64,000 nucleotides of DNA from Tetrahymena thermophila SB210 (lineage: Eukaryota > Ciliophora > Oligohymenophorea > Hymenostomatida > Tetrahymenidae), in the NCBI RefSeq assembly GCF_000189635.1, contig NW_002476085.1, forward strand, positions 1 through 64,000. Reading direction: 5' to 3'. The translations under genes and the position numbers were made by a program. This document shows positions 14,680 to 63,201 of the stretch, piece after piece. The notes below the pieces were generated by a model, which did no database searches, was not told where the DNA came from, and saw only the letters and a list, made by a program, of their open reading frames with translations. How positions within the stretch are numbered: the first letter of the stretch is position 1; the number at the start of each line of letters is the position of its first letter.

Positions 14680-14956
14680 AAAACGTTAATAGAAAGAATA
14701 TATTCCTGAATCAGAATAGGATTCAAAATTAAATTAATTTAAGATAATTAAACGACTATTATTATATTTTATTCTTCTATGTATTACAATTATTTTTAAT
14801 ATATATTAATTAAACTACTTAGAATTATATAATAAATCAATTAAAATAATTTATTAAACAATCAAATTATGACATATCTTTAAAACCTTCAAATTATGAA
14901 ATAATATTTACATTTATGCTATTAATTGTTATATTATAATTATATATTGATTATAA

Positions 14957-15388
14957 TATAATGGATAGTGGGAACACGAGCCCAAATCAGAGTACTANNN
15001 NNNNNNNNNNNNNNNNNNNNNNNNNNNNNNNNNNNNNNNNNNNNNNNNNNNNNNNNNNNNNNNNNNNNNNNNNNNNNNNNNNNNNNNNNNNNNNNNNNNN
15101 NNNNNNNNNNNNNNNNNNNNNNNNNNNNNNNNNNNNNNNNNNNNNNNNNNNNNNNNNNNNNNNNNNNNNNNNNNNNNNNNNNNNNNNNNNNNNNNNNNNN
15201 NNNNNNNNNNNNNNNNNNNNNNNNNNNNNNNNNNNNNNNNNNNNNNNNNNNNNNNNNNNNNNNNNNNNNNNNNNNNNNNNNNNNNNNNNNNNNNNNNNNN
15301 NNNNNNNNNNNNNNNNNNNNNNNNNNNNNNNNNNNNNNNNNNNNNNNNNNNNNNNNNNNNNNGGCTCGTGTTCCCACTATCCATTATA
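14957..15388. repeat. Inverted repeat flanking the assembly gap
   Basis: The 26-base left arm at 14957-14982 (core GGATAGTGGGAACACGAGCC) is the exact reverse complement of the right arm at 15363-15388 (core GGCTCGTGTTCCCACTATCC). The cores are much richer in G+C than the surroundings. The right arm touches the gap; the left arm ends 15 bases before it. This could be a true palindrome or hairpin that blocked sequencing, terminal inverted repeats of a short element, or a scaffolding artefact that joined one sequence to itself. Confidence 0.75.
14998..15362. other. Assembly gap (365 N)
   Basis: A run of 365 unknown bases. The true length may differ. Frames that appear to cross it are meaningless. 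Confidence 0.99.
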
Positions 15389-15721
15389 TATTATATCATA
15401 AAATAAATTCTTTTTTTTTGTATTGTAGTTATGTTTCAAAGAAATTTAATATGTAAAATGGAGTGGAAGTAGTTTTAAAAATTAAGATTTTTAATTTCAT
15501 AAATATTAAAACTTAATTAGTTAATAATCAAGAAAGCAAACAAGCAAGCAAGCAAATAAATAAATAAATAAACAAATTAAGAAAAGAATATTTTTTAGTT
15601 TTTCTATTCATTCAATTATATATCTAAATAAAAAGATAAAAACTTTAGTTAATTCCTAATAAAAGCAAGAATATTCATTATTCGAATAAATATTATAAAA
15701 AGCTGAATTTAGATAGGGAAG

Positions 15722-41610: not shown

Positions 41611-42921
41611 TCAATCAAATATTTGAGTTGCAAGTTAATCTTCTAAGGTTTCTCTCCTTCTGATAAGTTTATCTACTGAGCCATCAACAAGAATTTCTGC
41701 AGGTCTATTTCTTGAATTATAATTGCTAGCCATGCAGTAACCATAAGCACCTCCATTATATATAGCTAAAATATCATCATCTTTAACGGTTCTAATGAGT
41801 CTATTTTGACCGAATACATCACCACTTTCGCAAATATTACCACACACATTGACTTTTTATCTTTGGCTGTCTTCATTATTTGTTGATTCAAAATTAGATG
41901 CATTTTCTATTTTGTGATATGACTCATAAAGAGCTGGACGGATTAAATGATTCATACCAGTGTCTGTACCTATCCAAGTACTGTATTGGTTCTTCTTTAT
42001 AGCAGTGACAGTAGTGAGAAGATGACCACTCTCAGCAACTAAGAAACGGCCTGGCTCAACACGAATTTCAACATCATGGCCATATTTTTCTTTAAAAATT
42101 TTATATTCTTCAGCTATCTTTGAATAGGCTTCAATTAAATCAAGAGGCTTTACTCCATCTTCATAAGGAACACCTATACCTCCTCCTACATTAATGAACT
42201 TAAGACCTTTTATTTAAAGTGCTACGTCAAATATTTTTTTAATAGATTAAACATATTTATCCAAGTGGTTTTGAACCATGTTTGATCCGATGTGCTAATG
42301 AATACCTTCTATTTCAATTGGGTATTTCTCACTAATTTTTATGATTTCTTCTATTTAATTGCAATAAATACCAAACTTGCTTTTAGGTCCACCTGTAATT
42401 GTATGTTCACATTCTCCAACTCCTACATCAGGATTAATACGTACTGCAACTTTTAGCTTTTATCCATTTTCAGTTTCCTTCAAAACGAGCTTCTTAGATT
42501 AAAGGCGTTAGCCCAATGTCTCTAGAGTATCTAATTCTCCAATACAAAGCAAAATACCTTCCTTTAAAGAATCCTCCACTTCCTTCTACCCAATGAAATT
42601 TTCAGTAAATTATATATCTCTTCCTTCAAATCCTGCTTTTTTTGCAAGAAGCACCTCTTAGATGGAGACGGCATCTATTCCTTAGATTCCTTACTCTTTC
42701 ATCAACTTGATAATTGCAATATTTGTATTAGCCTTGCAAGCATAAAGTGCCTTTGTTTGAGTAGGAAGCAGCTTAAGTGCATTTAATAATTGTTAGCATC
42801 TTTCCTTAATCACTTGAGAATTGTAAACATAAAGTGGAGTGTCGTATTTTTACACTAGCTCACTTACTGTGAATTCTCCAATTTTCATCTCTTTGCTTTA
42901 TTATGTCTAATTTTGTTCCAT
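41611..42921 (-). CDS. lysA: Diaminopimelate decarboxylase (LysA-like)
   Basis: A single intronless ORF of 436 aa, standard for LysA, a PLP enzyme that converts meso-diaminopimelate to lysine. The PLP lysine is in ALYACKANTN near residue 62. Other family blocks are in order: KVAVRINPDVGVG, HTITGGPKSKFGI, GIHQHIGSNM, the glycine-rich phosphate loop FINVGGGIGVPYEDG, RVEPGRFLVAESG, the active-site Cys in GNICESGDVF, and AYGYCMASNYNSRNRPAEIL with LIRRRETLED at the end. G+C is visibly higher than in neighbours, and the lack of introns is unusual for this window, though MPG and H2A.Y also lack them. Tetrahymena is known to need dietary lysine, so this enzyme cannot complete a full pathway alone; it may convert diaminopimelate from digested bacterial cell walls. 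A bacterial origin is likely but inferred. Confidence 0.95.
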
Positions 42922-44105: not shown

Positions 44106-47100
44106 ATGGATATCATAGAATAATTGGATATTCAACAACAAATAGATTTACAATAAGTTAAAAAAGTGCTGTTTAGAAAGGCCAACTTCTAGGTAATAAA
44201 GATAATAAAAGGTAATTAAGAAAATATTTGTTAAGTTATTGTTTAAGATCAGACAACTTAAAAATAATACACTTTGCTAATTTTCCCTCTTCTTAACGAT
44301 TAAGGAAATATATGTCATAGAAAATTAGCTTATGCTTAATAAAGAAGCTAGATATTATCAGAAATTAATCACCCAAATATCACGAAGTTTTATGGTTCGT
44401 TTTAGTTGCAAAATTATTTCTTTGTGTAACTTGAGAAATTTGAATAGACTGCATTTATCTGGTGTGAATAGTACCAACAATTTTTGTTTTACAAAATATT
44501 AGTTTCAAATGTAGCTCTACAAATATTAAGTGTATTTAAATATTTGGATAGCTAAAATCTAAGTGTTGAATTGCTTTCTGATCAAACAGTATTTATAAAT
44601 GACATCCATTAAATAAAAATATGGAATATTAAAAAAAAAAATGAAAATTAAAATAATTAGGTTCAGTTGACTACACAAAATTAAATATAATAAAATTAAT
44701 AATTATTTTAGAGCAATATTTTTGAATTCAGTAAATTCATCTAAACTATTTTGGAAAAATAAGAATATTTAGATTATTATGAGCCTTTTACTTAGCATAA
44801 ATATTAAATTAATTTAATTTAAAATATAAAAGAAAAATCAATCAACTCATAGAATCAAATTGAAAAGTTAATAGCCTAATACAACTTAATCCTTTAAAAA
44901 TAATTAAAAAAATTAGATGAAAATTAAATTCATAAAGTAGTCTAATTTTTTTTTAAAAATAAATACCCCCTTTTAACATAAAATGTAGATTTTCTAAAAG
45001 ATATTTTAATTGTTTGCAATTTAAAAATCAATTACAAAATTAAATATGTTTATTTAGTTTGCTAAATGTTAATTGATCAAGAGAAATTCTAAGATGCTCT
45101 TTAATATATTCATCTCATTTTTGATATTAATAAGAGTATTTATGATTTAGATTTAGAGTCCTTCTAGAATTCAATACAAAATGGGATTTAAAATAGAAAG
45201 AAATATGAAAAATATGTCAAACTTTTCCTAAATTTGTTTAAGTTTTAGCTTTCTGGATATCAACATATTGAAGATTCTTATATTTAACAAGATAAATAAA
45301 AAAGAAAAATAAATTAAAATTAAATTTAAAGATAAAATAGCTACTAATTGACTTTGGATAAAATTAATATCTTTAAAATAATTACTGATGATGGATAATC
45401 TTTCTAGTAAAACATATGTGAATTATATAATTCTTTGTCATAATAATATTTATCACTTAGTTCTCTAAAATAAGCAATATTTTTTTAAAAGAAGTCTGTG
45501 CTATTAAATAAATAAAATGAATAATTTAGAAAATATTTGGCTGAATTATATAATTAAAATTTTGATTTTAAAAGCTAAATAAAGTGTTTACAACTTTGCT
45601 TTAAAGCTTCTTAGGACACCAATATTTTAAATAATATCACAGATTCATTAATAAAATTAAATTTATTTGAGATGGCTAAATAGATTTGTCTTTTCTAAAT
45701 TTCGTAAGATTAAAAGAATGATAATGCTCTCATTAAACTAGGAATTATATATTTAGAGCTTAAAAATCTACAAAAGGCAAAGACAGCATTTTAAAAATGT
45801 ATTAATATTAATTAATCAAACTTCGATGCATACCTTTACCTATCATTTTATTTCTTCCAAAAACAGCACTACTTTAGATCAATTTAAAATATATTAAAGT
45901 TTTCTTCAGATTAAAAGAAACGTTGTCAAAAAAGAAATATTATAAAAATGAATCATGCAATTATTTCTAAAAAGTTAAAGGAAACATATAATATATATTA
46001 ATCTGAAATCATGATATACAGAAAGAATTCTTATACTCAAGGTGGCTACTTATACTTATATCCAAAGGATAATAAGTATGATACAAGCGAAAATATCCAC
46101 AACGAAATTTACATAAGAGGAATCTAGTTAAAATTACTTTTTTTTTTTGAATTTTAATAATTAATTATTTATTTATTAATTAATTAATAGTAATTCACCA
46201 AGAGAAATTGAAAGTGATTAAAGTATAGAAGAAGAAGATGAATATAGTGATTCAGTAGATGATCATTACGATGACCACAAAAGCGAAATAGATTGTTCTT
46301 CTGAATAAAGATTATAAATTTAAAGTGAGTAGTTATCAAATTAAACGATTTAAAAAGAAATTTAAATAAACTTTGATAATGAAAATAAATAAAAGTAAGG
46401 AGATGAATATGAAACTAAATCTACTGAAAATAATTAGGTTAAAACAAATACTGATATCAAATTTAATGATTGCATTATGATGATGTCTACATCTATAAAA
46501 GACCAATAATAATAATAATAATAAGATGAAAATAAATAATTAACATAAAATTTAAATAATACTTTAAATAAATAATCTATTGAAGAAAATTAAAATCTAG
46601 AAAACGATTAGTCAGGTCGATTTTAATAGATGTAAAAATAAAAGGTAAGATTTTATTTTAATTTAATTTTAATATTGAAATAAACAATTTTGTTTAAAGT
46701 TTAAATTTTTAAAATTAATTTTAGATAAGTTAGGAAAATGAATAATTAGACACTCCAGATTAAAAGAATAACTAAAATTTAATAATTGAATCTGAAAGAT
46801 TTTAAGATTAGATGTTAAATATTGAGAGTTAGTAAATTTATTAAGATAAAAAAGTCTCTGCAGTAAGCAAAGCAGAAAATTAGTAAAGCAAATATTATGT
46901 ATAAAGTAAAGAAGAGAAAATTTCTTCTAATTCTATTTAAAATGATGAAAATTAATCAAATTAATAAGAAATGAAAGTTGATGAAGTTAACTAGAATTAG
47001 ATAACTGAAACAGTTTAAAATGTTTTAGAAGATAATAACCATTAAAGTGGATATTATTAGAGTATTTTAAATTTAAATAATTATGAATAGCAATAAACTT

Positions 47101-47709: not shown

Positions 47710-48501
47710 TCATTTGGATACAAATTTATTTCCTTTTAAAGTGAATCTCCAAAGTTTATCTACCCACTCTTAAGCATAGTCAATATTAATTCTTTTGCTA
47801 GCTTCAATTTATACAGCAGATTTATCTAATCCTTTTACAAGATATAACTTTCCCTTTTCAAATAAAGTGTGTCCATTATAATCTTTATCAATATTGATAG
47901 CCTAAGTAAGTTTACCAGGTCCATTAGTTAAGTCTTTATCTTTTAGTTTAGGGTTGCTTCCTCTGAACTTTTTCATGACTTAAATGCCCTAAATAGGCTC
48001 TAGAGCACGGATCAAAACAGCCTCTGGTTCATCTTTGGTAGCACTAACGATATTCATACAGTTATTATTTCCATAAATACTATACATATATAGATGGCCT
48101 CCATCTTACCAAAACCATTTAGTTTTTTCTGTTTTTTTATTGTTGTATGCATGACAAGCTTTATCTAAAGGAGCTTTATAAGCTTCAGTTTCAACAATCA
48201 TGGCTTTCAAAACTGTACCATCGTCCAAAACTCTAATTAGATAAGTACCTATTAGTTTTTATGCTAAATCTACAACACAACAATTGTAAAATTCTTTAGG
48301 AATAGGATCATCATCTCCTAATTTTTTTAGAATATCTTGATCATCAGTTTATGGTTTACCATTTGTAGTGTTCTCTTTTTAATTTTTCTTATTCTGATCT
48401 TCACTCTCCATTTTAACCTCTTCTTCTATTTCATCAAGGTCTTCTTCTACAGGTCTTTTTTAGACTTTACCGTTTTAAGCTCTTGTTTTTTTAGGTGGCA
48501 T
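47710..48501 (-). CDS. MPG: Alkylpurine (3-methyladenine) DNA glycosylase, AAG/MPG family
   Basis: An intronless gene for 263 aa. It should remove alkylated or deaminated purines from DNA, the first step of base-excision repair, in the nucleus. Residues 1-65 are a charged linker starting MPPKKTRAQNGKVQKRPVEE, suitable for nuclear import. The fold then shows the family blocks: PKEFYNCCVVDLAQKLIGTY, AMIVETEAYKAPLDKACHAY (with the catalytic Glu in ETEAY), GGHLYMYSIYGNNNCMNIVS (with the intercalating Tyr region), EPEAVLIRALEPIQG and LTNGPGKLTQAINI. The C-terminal strand set ends at KRINIDYAQEWVDKLWRF. The length and order fit the mammalian and bacterial enzymes. Confidence 0.95.
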
Positions 48502-49396
48502 TTTTAGTTTGAAAGTTAGCAAAATGATAAATTATTTGATATCTACTTTTATTTTAACAAATTAACAATTATTCTTAAAATCAACTATATTTCTGATGAA
48601 TTTTAATTAAAATGAACCGCATAATTACATTTTATTTTCCCAAATAATAAAAAAGATGAAATACAATTATTAATTTTTTTAATTTTGATATTAAGTTTTT
48701 TAATAATTTTTCAGAAATATTTTCAATTCATTTTAATATAATTAATAACATTAATCTAATATAAATAATAAAATTTTCAAGCTTAGAGAACCTCCAAAAT
48801 AAAATTAAAATAACTTAATTCTAAACATTTTAAAAATTAGATTTTTAATTTTAATAAAATTAAAATAATATTTTTTTATGCACTTGTAATAAAAATAAAA
48901 TAAATTTTTTTATGGTTTTGAAATATTTTAATGAGATTATTATTATAAAATTTAATATTTTTGATTAAAATTAAAGAATTTTATGCTCCATATTGCCATA
49001 AAATACATTTTAATTCTATGCAGTAATTTAAATAAGTATTTTGTTGAAGTAAATATGATATTTTTTTCATTAAATTCCATAGAATTATTAAAAAAATAAT
49101 ATTTATAAATTTTACATTTATTTGAAAAATAGAAATACATTCAAAGAATATTTATTTACTGCATATATTAAGAGGATAATAAGAAAAATTTTAACAGTAA
49201 AAATATTAATTGAAAAGTATAAGTGGAGTAGAATTTATCTAGAAATGCAGACAAAGTAAAAATAAAATAACCCCTGGCTTAAGCCAGGAACTAGAATTTT
49301 ATGTATCAGAACTGCTGCCCTTTTATCTCATGGTTTGATTTGAATAAAAAATTAAATAGATCATTCATTTTAAGTCTTTTTGAATAATATCTTAAA
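48502..49396. other. Divergent intergenic region with a GC-rich hairpin
   Basis: AT-rich promoter region of MPG (-) and the MyTH4-FERM gene (+). It contains the palindrome at 49273-49288 and a G+C-richer stretch to about 49335 (listed separately). No coding frame was supported. Confidence 0.6.
49273..49335. other. GC-rich palindrome / possible small RNA or 5' UTR element
   Basis: CCTGGCTTAAGCCAGG (49273-49288) is a perfect 16-base palindrome, folding as a 6-bp stem with a TTAA loop. It is followed by unusually G+C-rich sequence (GTATCAGAACTGCTGCCC) and TTTT at 49321-49324. It lies 109-124 bases upstream of the MyTH4-FERM start codon. It could be a hairpin in that gene's leader, a transcription-factor site, or a small polymerase III RNA. 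The strand is undetermined. Confidence 0.4.
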
Positions 49397-56767: not shown

Positions 56768-59700
56768 ATGAATTTTTTTACTTAAAGTGAACCATATATA
56801 GAATATTCTTAAAATAATAATACTATTTAGCAAGAAAATAGTTACTAAGCTGATTAAAGTTAATAAATACTTCGTTAAAACATAAAAACAACTGAATATG
56901 ATTAGGAGATTTCTTTAGAAGACATTAATTATAGAAATTAGTTAGAAATGATTAAAAACTAATCTACTTCATTTCATATATTTAAAAGTAATATAGATGA
57001 TTTTAAATTTAAAAAAGACTGCTATTAGGTAGATAATTCAAGTGAGATTATAGATTCTCCTGAATCTTCTTCAAACACGAATGATAAAAGCTAATAGGAT
57101 AATTCACCTTCTTTCTCAATTCAATAAGTAGAAATAGATAAACAATAAAAGAAAGATAATAATTAACCAAAGTATGAAAACCAATCCAAAAGAAAACATC
57201 GTTCTGGTTCTTAAACCTGGAAAAACAGTTTTAATTACTAACAGCAATAGCAATTATAGAATGAAAGTTAATATCTATCTCCTATTTAAAATAAATCTAA
57301 CACTATATGTAAATCAACTTAAAGAGAAAATTCTGTTAGATCATCATCAATTTGTAGGAGTTTAACAAAAAAACGAAGTACTTTATTGGCTATCAGAAAC
57401 TCTAATTTAACATTAAATCCTTAAACATAACAAATAAATGGATCAGGCAATTAAAATATCAGTAATCAGTAAGAAAATTAAGCAGAAGAAAGTAAAAACA
57501 AAGCACTCAATGTGATAGATTATTTAACTAAAGATAAAAAAAGCTAAAAAAGGAATTTGTTAAAATAAATTTACTATATCAGAAAAATCACAAATATTTT
57601 AAAGCAAAGACTAGATAAAAATAGAATATTTCTTTTAAAAAAAGAGCACTATAACATTATAAATGATAAAGCTTACTTTTACAATCCTATTGATAAGACT
57701 AAAAACCATATTTTGGAAGTCAAAATATTTTAAATATTTTCTAGTATTATTGGTGGATTTTTAAACAGAATTAAAGTAATTTTTTATATTCAATAAAATT
57801 AATTTTATGGAAATTTTTCCAAACATACTAATTTTCTTTGGGTTTTAAAATGTGCATACAAATGAATTTTTATATTTTGGAATACAATGTTATTTTAGGT
57901 TATTTAAAAAAACTTTGAAATAATGATAAATAAAAGAAATTATTTAAATTTTAAAACAAAACATTAATTTTTTTATTATTTTTTAAATTCTTTTAAAATT
58001 TATAAATAATTAAAATAGACATTTTCTCCTGATAATTTACTAATAATGTGGATGAACCTTTTTGTTCTTTTGATTTAGTTTTTCTAGCTAATAATTTATC
58101 CACTTAAAAGCTCATTTCAGATATAAGATCTCGAAAATAATTAAATTTACGAAGATTTGTTCAGAATATTTCCAATAATTATAGGTTTGCTAGAAATAAG
58201 CTTTTCTTTTAATATTTCTTATTATGAAAACGGAATAATTATTTCTGATAGAAAAGAAATTATTAAAAACTATTTTAAAAAGAAGTTTTTTTTTGATATT
58301 GTTTGCATTTTAATAGTATAATTAAATTACAACAATGGGATGTTTATAGTTGATTTGCTCTTTGCTATTTTTTCTATTAAAAAAATAATAATTAATATAA
58401 AAACTATAAATGAGCATTTTTAAATTGAATAAAGATTTTCTACTTCTTATGATCTTATGAAATTATGTTTGCTTGTTTTTTACATGGGGCATTATTGTGC
58501 ATGTGGCTACTATTATATCGGAATGCTTTACTCTCCAAATTGGATTATTCATTATGGATTTTCTAATGATGCTTGGTATTCAAACTATGTAAACTCCCTT
58601 TATTTTACATTTATAACTATGATAACAGTTGGGTTTGGAGATATTGCTCCTATCAATTCTTATGAAAAGATATATGTTATATTCATGACTATAGGTACAT
58701 GCGGTGTTTTTGCTTATTCTATAAATACTATAGGTAGAATTTTTAGTGAAATGGCTTTGAGTGAAGCTAAATACAGGTATTAACTGATTTTCAAGTTTTT
58801 CAAGCAAGCAAATAGATATTTAATTATTTCAATAAAATAATTCTTAAAAAAATAGCTTTTAATTCAAAACAATTTTTTTTATTTTATTACAAAAATTTTT
58901 AAAAAATACTGCAAAAATAAAATGTCAAAAAAAATATTTAGTGTTTCCACATACTTTTAAAGTAAAAGTAAGCATTACAGTGCAAATTATTTTAAAAGTT
59001 TGACAGTATAAAGAAAATCATTTATAATTCAATAATTAAATTTTATAATAATAGAAATAAAAAGTTTGAGATTACTAAGCTGATGTAATAAAGAAATATT
59101 ACTAAGAAAACTTAAAGAAAAGTAATAAAATTTTTAGAATATGAGTAAAGTCAAGAAATGGATAGTTCCTAAAAAGGAGAAGAGATTCTTCTTAAAATAT
59201 CAAAATCACTTAGAGATGAAGTAAATCGAGAGTATTTTGGAAAATTCTTAAATGATATTAAATTGTTTAGGTTAAATTTCTCAATGGAATTTATTATGAA
59301 ACTAACAAGCCATGTGAAGGAAAAAACATTTGGTCCAAATGAAATAATATTTTCAGAAGGAGATTTGGATAGAACATTTTATTTCATTTGTAGTGGATAA
59401 GTTTAGTTATATCTTAATAATAAAATATCACAAAACAGGGATGATTTTGATCTTATTTCAGTTGGAGTAAATTTATTTTTTACAAAAAATTATTTTCCTT
59501 ATTTATTTTTTTATTATTTTCGAAATAGAAAGGATCCTTGCTAGGTATTAATAGTTTCTTAACTGGAAATCCTAAAGATATGTCAGCAAAAAGCCTAAAT
59601 GGTTCTCATTTGATTTATTGTTCAGAAAGTGATTTTTTATAGACACTCAAGTTATTTGAATCTGACTATGTAAATTAATTTTAAATTAATTAAAATAGAA

Positions 59701-62034: not shown

Positions 62035-63201
62035 TCATTTTTTGGATTTATTAATAATTGGAAGGACAAAATTAGTACTTGTGCTTCCTCCTTCAGCTAT
62101 AATAGTACCATTTACAAATTAGTTTAACTCAGCATCGTTTCTAAAAGCTTCTCTTATATGAACTGGGTTAATTCTACTTAGCCTATTGTTTTTTGCTATA
62201 TTTCCTGCAGTTTCTAAGACTTCTGCTGCTAAGTATTCAAGAACACCAGCTAAGTAAATGTTACAGCTTGAAGAAACTCTAAATTGTTTGCAAGCCTGTT
62301 TCAAGTATCTTCTAAGTCTTCCACAAGGAAATACTAAACCACTTTTTTGAGATGTAGACTACTTTGAAAAAGCATTCATTTTGCCTTTTCCAGCTTTTGA
62401 TGGTACTCCACCATTTCTTGATGCAGGTGCTTTTCTACCAACACTTACAGCAGCAGTAACTTTTGCTTAAACTACATTAGATTTGTTGTCTTAAACTGAT
62501 GCTTGAGAAGGCTTAGATACTTTTGCAGGTACAATTTTGGGAATTTATTTAACTTAAGCTACTTTTTGTGTAGAACTGAAAAGATTATTTTAAGTAGCTT
62601 TAGCATTTTTAACTACTTATTTGGAAACATTTTATACAGGCTTAGATTTATCAAATAAGTTATCAGGCACTCTTGAAGCAGAAATATCAAGAGCTGCTTT
62701 TTCTTAATCAATTCCATTTTTATCTAAAGTGTCTAATATTACCAAAGAAGGAAACAAATTAAAAACTAAATTTCTATAATTATTTGTATTAACAACTGGA
62801 TTATTCAATAAATCTAGTTGAATTAATTCTCTCATCTAACCGAGTCTCTTCAAGTCTTCGATCTCTTCAATTTAATTTGCACCAAGCATTAAAGTTTGTA
62901 AATGTCTTGATCCTCTCAAATATTAAAGCTAGTCTCCAGTAATTTTATTAAAGACCAAGTCTAATCTAATCAAAGAAGGAACATGAGGGAAGTTAGTTAA
63001 ATCAGAGATAAGGCAATCGTTGATTGTTAGCATTTAAAGAGATGTAAATCTTTCAATCTTCTACTTAATTCGATTATCAAATTTCTCAAAGCGTAATGAC
63101 ATTATTTCTATCACATAAACTTCATCATCTCTACTATCTCCCTATTGCTCTGCTATTGAATCTAATACTTATTTTATTATCTTTTCTTAGTCAGTTGACA
63201 T
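62035..63201 (-). CDS. Chimeric histone H2A variant with N-terminal leucine-rich repeats (H2A.Y type)
   Basis: An intronless ORF of 388 aa. Residues 30-175 are leucine-rich repeats of the Sds22/ANP32 kind (LTINDCLISDLTNFPHVPSL, IRLDLVFNKITGDQLQYLRG, LQTLMLGANQIEEIEDLKRL, LDLLNNPVVNTNNYRN) closed by an LRR cap VFNLFPSLVILDTLD. Residues 180-280 are a Lys/Ala/Ser/Val-rich linker typical of histone tails. Residues 285-375 are an H2A histone fold: SGLVFPCGRLRRYLKQAC, YLAGVLEYLAAEVLETAGNI, RLSRINPVHIREAFRNDAEL, then IAEGG. Tetrahymena H2A.Y has exactly this build; it is known to be essential, and its Sds22-like tail regulates PP1-dependent dephosphorylation of histone H3 Ser10 at mitosis. Assignment is by domain order, from memory of the published protein. 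Confidence 0.93.

Follow-up and report, generated by a model that had tools for sequence, protein, structure and literature searches.

An ANP32-like leucine-rich repeat domain joined to histone H2A at the Tetrahymena thermophila H2A.Y locus

Tetrahymena possesses a histone, H2A.Y, to which a passage of PMC3380720 attributes a unique leucine-rich repeat (LRR) domain and a phosphatase-regulating activity. The original work (Song et al. 2012), whose title calls the protein "chimeric" in the reference lists of citing papers, is cited in an excerpt of PMC3516489 for the control of H3 Ser10 dephosphorylation, with protein phosphatase 1 (PP1) as the partner. Two LRR families are relevant to this domain. 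Sds22 (PPP1R7) has 12 repeats, and its PP1-binding mutations are F170A, E192A, F214A and E300A, according to a section of PMC11199634. The LRR of ANP32B binds H3-H4 and inhibits protein phosphatase 2A (PP2A), and histone binding by ANP32 is located on the concave face of the domain, as stated in an excerpt of PMC8082267.

We analysed a stretch of 64,000 nucleotides of T. thermophila SB210 (contig NW_002476085.1, positions 1 to 64,000; hereafter the window), in which the minus strand at 62035-63201 encodes a protein joining an LRR domain to an H2A fold. Such a fusion and its role are already known. Our subject is the origin of its LRR, which decides where the partner of H2A.Y should be sought. 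In sequence comparisons, the LRR groups with the ANP32 family and a grouping with Sds22 is rejected. If the domain does come from ANP32, the Sds22-PP1 structure should not serve as its template, and H3-H4 and PP2A become candidates beside PP1.

The fused gene and its identity

The locus comprises the following features:
62035-63201, minus strand: complete coding frame, 388 residues plus TGA stop (translation with NCBI table 6)
62707-63201, minus strand: residues 1-165, ANP32-type domain with an N-terminal helix, four to five repeats and an LRR cap (Pfam LRR_9, PDB search, trees, AlphaFold2 model)
62350-62706, minus strand: residues 166-284, basic linker, predicted disordered (net charge +16, GC content, model confidence)
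62038-62349, minus strand: residues 285-388, H2A fold and short C-terminal tail (Pfam Histone, PDB search, alignments)
62068-62085, minus strand: a stretch inside the H2A part (alignments)

The frame (63201 to 62035) opens with ATG and runs for 388 codons to its single in-frame TGA, the stop of the ciliate code, with glutamine encoded by TAA or TAG at 19 places. Two Pfam domains score above their cut-offs, LRR_9 at residues 59-158 (E = 5.9e-11) and Histone at residues 259-354 (E = 1.7e-8), and residues 269-374 match H2A among PDB sequences (E = 3.6e-25). The Pfam and PDB matches of both halves are thus far beyond chance, and the LRR stands N-terminal to the H2A fold within one protein, as in H2A.Y. 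A preliminary description of this DNA had proposed a single LRR-H2A protein at these coordinates, with H2A at residues 285-375 and a build of H2A.Y type. All of this is borne out by the uninterrupted frame, in which LRR and cap, linker and H2A fold are read in succession. The whole-protein AlphaFold2 (AF2) model is confident over the LRR, with a predicted local distance difference test score (pLDDT) of about 75-96 over residues 1-160 in ten-residue blocks; it is below 50 across residues 159-319, and only fair in the histone part (blocks of 64-79 over about 321-360).

One might suppose that two genes, one for an ANP32-like LRR protein and one for H2A, have been read together, as the linker is predicted disordered and the profile search of the 388-residue protein found no Pfam domain in it above cut-off. 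We regard this as extremely improbable. The frame is free of TGA up to its stop, and the GC content of the linker (32.2%) is at the coding level of the LRR part (28.1%) and the H2A part (32.4%) and well above that of the flanks (12.3% and 15.4%), which makes two separate genes unlikely. Moreover, the published H2A.Y itself has an LRR in the passage of PMC3380720, and the original title already says chimeric.

The genome searched comprised 101,022,631 bases in 445 contigs. Its telomerase reverse transcriptase blocks (102 and 135 residues) are identical at 237 of 237 positions to PDB 6D6V, which parts of PMC6469803 and PMC7426096 give as the T. thermophila enzyme. A search with the whole protein returned 11 matches, with both halves only at the window locus. 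As this is a T. thermophila genome with one fusion locus, we identify the gene, with near certainty, as the published H2A.Y, listed as TTHERM_01079200 in an excerpt of PMC4122937; the assignment draws on organism, build and single copy. The same source, in part, counts 12 T. thermophila histones with a histone-fold domain, and we obtained 12 histone-fold matches, but matches are not genes and the agreement may be luck. Outside this genome, pattern scans that detect close relatives only gave 10 matches in viral contigs, none of them a relative of the fusion by tblastn, and 386 in bacterial and archaeal contigs, again with no relative among them.

Origin of the LRR domain

The PDB was searched with residues 1-180, and the ranks refer to the best 60 of 171 rows. 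ANP32A and ANP32B account for eight of the nine top rows (7e-14 to 2.3e-11), the best being ANP32B over residues 39-167 (E = 7e-14), and a bacterial Roco protein is also among these nine (1.3e-11). Sds22 (PPP1R7) ranks below further Roco rows, an internalin and a dynein regulatory subunit; its match (4.2e-8) extends over residues 32-126 and does not cover the cap. U2A' follows at 1.6e-7. When human ANP32B was used as query against the genome, the first of nine matches was a stand-alone ANP32-like gene on contig C398 (8.1e-14) and the second was H2A.Y (4.7e-11). By contrast, H2A.Y is absent from the 39 matches of the SDS22 query at E <= 0.001, among which the C398 gene does appear, at 1.4e-4. 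The C398 gene (L011/L027) is the best LRR relative of H2A.Y in the genome (39% identity, 4.4e-25). Beyond the downstream end of its frame is an open stretch that includes 85 residues with a net charge of -49, as expected for the acidic tail of an ANP32; from its place, this stretch probably belongs to the C398 gene. There is also a third ANP32-like gene (L015/L029, G000 C269:375635-376060), whose LRR is 29% identical to that of H2A.Y and whose protein has a short acidic stretch close to its end.

A separate Sds22-like gene is present on contig C270; it matches the SDS22 query, and its name is otherwise our assumption. When the local alignment score of the H2A.Y LRR was set against 300 shuffles, z was 39.4 for the Tetrahymena ANP32, 22.7 for ANP32B and 21.8 for ANP32A, as compared with 8.2 for human SDS22 and 6.4 (without the cap) or 11.7 (with the cap) for Tetrahymena Sds22. 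Values of 13.5 to 19.6, all above those of Sds22, were obtained for four further LRR proteins from this genome.

Trees were built from 19 rows, including three on long branches (L033, L020 and L015), and from 13 rows, with L030, L032, one ANP32A row and the three long-branch rows left out. H2A.Y joins the Tetrahymena ANP32 with support of 95/89 in the 19-row tree and 93/89 in the 13-row tree; for the ANP32 group including H2A.Y, the values are 92/86 and 97/94, respectively. With one differing letter at the exon join of Tetrahymena Sds22, support for the ANP32 group in the 19-row tree is only 81/58. The approximately unbiased (AU) test rejects the placement of H2A.Y with Sds22 (p = 0.00017 for 19 rows and 0.0008 for 13; 1.4e-5 and 0.0015 with the differing letter), with the CFAP410-like rows (p = 0.003 and 0.0009) and with the U2A'-like row (p = 0.0019 and 0.0031). 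For Tetrahymena rows, designations such as CFAP410, LRRC49, LRRC56, DNAAF1 and U2A' reflect our own interpretation. In a Foldseek search with the AF2 model, ANP32 chains hold ranks 1-8 and 10 and SDS22 rank 9; normalised to target length, the template modelling score reaches 0.86 for pp32 (2je0) and 0.32 for SDS22, the chain of the latter being longer. The label "Sds22/ANP32-like" initially given to the domain therefore survives in its ANP32 part, on searches, z scores and trees, but not as an equal likeness to Sds22, which the AU test and the absence of H2A.Y from the SDS22 matches contradict. We found no literature that places the H2A.Y LRR in the ANP32 family, among sources other than the original H2A.Y paper, which may discuss it.

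A passage in a paper citing the original H2A.Y work describes the LRR as an Sds22 domain, and on such an account it would be a shortened form that binds PP1 as Sds22 does, H2A.Y being a chromatin-tied Sds22. Sds22 does match the LRR in the PDB search, and the end of Tetrahymena Sds22 with its cap reaches the z of 11.7 given above. The PP1 contacts tell against this. In the alignment with Tetrahymena Sds22, positions F170, E192 and F214 fall in repeats without counterpart in H2A.Y, and E300 corresponds to T103. Three further residues of SDS22, W302, Y327 and D280, we presume to be PP1 contacts; the first two correspond to M105 and D130, and of the three H2A.Y retains only D280 (its D81). In Tetrahymena Sds22, the four mutated positions are occupied by Y, E, Y and E, and the other three residues are retained. 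The Sds22 interface for PP1 thus appears to be mostly missing from H2A.Y, whose LRR neither joins Sds22 in the trees nor carries the F170, E192, F214 and E300 contacts. Together with the AU rejection, the failure of the SDS22 query and the 12 repeats of Sds22 (PMC11199634, in part), this leaves an Sds22 origin improbable. As to other PP1-docking motifs, the single loose match to RVxF, RNLVF at residues 143-147, lies inside a predicted cap helix (142-149) and was set aside, and no match was found in the H2A.Y protein to the SILK and MyPhoNE patterns as we take them to be.

The histone half and a putative mechanism

The second half of the protein has an H2A fold and an H2A acidic patch, five of whose six residues (by what we assume to be the list of patch positions) are retained, with Ala at the position of E91; the docking region has six extra residues. 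Its identity is 56.4% to H2A.1 (62/110), 58.8% to H2A.X (67/114) and 47.2% to H2A.Z (42/89, a part of H2A.Z only), so that over the aligned parts it seems nearer to H2A.1 and H2A.X than to H2A.Z; its place is not resolved in a seven-row H2A tree. An ancestral link between LRR chaperones and H2A had been proposed from the removal of H2A.Z by ANP32E, and we set it aside as unsupported, since in these comparisons the protein's H2A part does not seem closer to H2A.Z than to H2A.1 or H2A.X. ANP32E also holds H2A.Z outside its own LRR. The H2A.X of this assembly (L012 1465-1878, minus strand) ends in SRGQASQDL, one residue different from the SRGGASQDL printed in a passage of PMC3380720.

We consider it likely that the window holds the single T. 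thermophila H2A.Y gene, encoding an LRR descended from ANP32 but devoid of the acidic tail, a basic linker and a divergent H2A, and that the LRR brings or steers a phosphatase. The fusion, its one copy in the genome, the ANP32 grouping, the H2A fold and the missing acidic tail are what we observe here. In the mechanism that we envisage, the H2A half would anchor the protein within nucleosomes, and the basic linker, about 120 residues long, would act as a flexible arm from which the LRR could bring or steer the phosphatase to nearby H3 tails, leading to removal of the Ser10 phosphate after mitosis, in keeping with the phosphatase role published by others. Because the LRR does not belong to the Sds22 family and most Sds22 contacts are lacking, binding of the phosphatase most likely involves another surface or a partner: a contact with PP1, if direct, would probably be made through a surface of the domain's own, and otherwise through a partner protein.

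Several points weigh against this interpretation. Identity alone fails to separate the families (29-39% to ANP32, 32-33% to Sds22), and the trees contained few sequences from outside Tetrahymena. The fold ranking is not independent, because two ANP32-like paralogs were present in the AF2 alignment, and a model of the LRR alone without them reached a pLDDT of only 35. The equation with TTHERM_01079200 is one of organism, build and copy number rather than letter for letter. In place of the acidic low-complexity C-terminal region of ANP32, residues 166-284 have a net charge of +16. Lastly, with core and concave positions as we assigned them, identity on the concave face is 9/25 to Tetrahymena ANP32, against 39/98 outside core and concave face, and 2/20 to human ANP32B, against 26/91. 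The concave face is thus not specially conserved, which makes it less likely that the function of ANP32 was simply carried over.

Such a carry-over, in which the LRR would still bind H3-H4 or inhibit PP2A in cis on the H2A.Y nucleosome, with an indirect effect on Ser10, is suggested by the ANP32 descent of the domain and by the activities of the ANP32B LRR (excerpt of PMC8082267). We think it unlikely, given the loss of the acidic tail and the state of the concave face; moreover, a PP2A inhibitor is expected to preserve the phosphate, not to remove it, and PP1 is the published partner (PMC3516489, in part). In the PDB search, D42 of H2A.Y aligns with Asp31 of ANP32B, a residue that the excerpt of PMC8082267 connects with PP2A inhibition, but the position is Glu in the ANP32A of that search and Thr in Tetrahymena ANP32, and with such variation we conclude nothing from D42.

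Neighbouring features and comparison with known systems

Elsewhere in the window, Pfam matches identify four frames, and four others tried gave no Pfam family:
41611-42921, minus strand: pyridoxal-dependent decarboxylase
44106-46211, plus strand: tetratricopeptide repeat (TPR) protein
47710-49140, minus strand: methylpurine-DNA glycosylase
57887-59083, plus strand: ion channel

On either side of a run of N (14998-15362) stand the arms of a perfect inverted repeat of 27 bases (14956-14982 and 15363-15389), and the region 14956-15389 has the appearance either of a palindrome at which the assembly was left with a gap or of an element that has been masked.

With the published H2A.Y (TTHERM_01079200), the gene shares its organism, the LRR plus H2A build and the one copy found in the genome, and we found no difference, sequence letters not being part of the comparison. 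MacroH2A, an H2A likewise joined to a large non-histone domain, is a PDB match of the histone half, but its extra domain lies behind the histone fold whereas that of H2A.Y lies in front; the name H2A.y has also been used for macroH2A, in a paper that mentions ANP32. Sds22 resembles H2A.Y in its class of LRR with a cap and in its published link to PP1, but it has 12 repeats against the four to five of H2A.Y, where most of the Sds22 contact positions are missing. With the ANP32 family (ANP32A, ANP32B and Tetrahymena ANP32), H2A.Y shares the LRR and cap, the best matches and the tree group; it differs in its altered concave face and in the basic linker and H2A fold that stand where ANP32 has an acidic tail. 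We would give about even chances to H2A.Y being a histone with a domain of the ANP32 chaperone family in the same chain, in which phosphatase recruitment evolved afresh and the likeness to Sds22 is one of function and not of descent. If so, this is a histone with a module of a histone-chaperone family in its own chain. According to a section of PMC5357732, T. thermophila also has a stand-alone ANP32-family protein, Coi7p, which binds the HP1-like Coi6p, and the two proteins can thus be compared within one cell.
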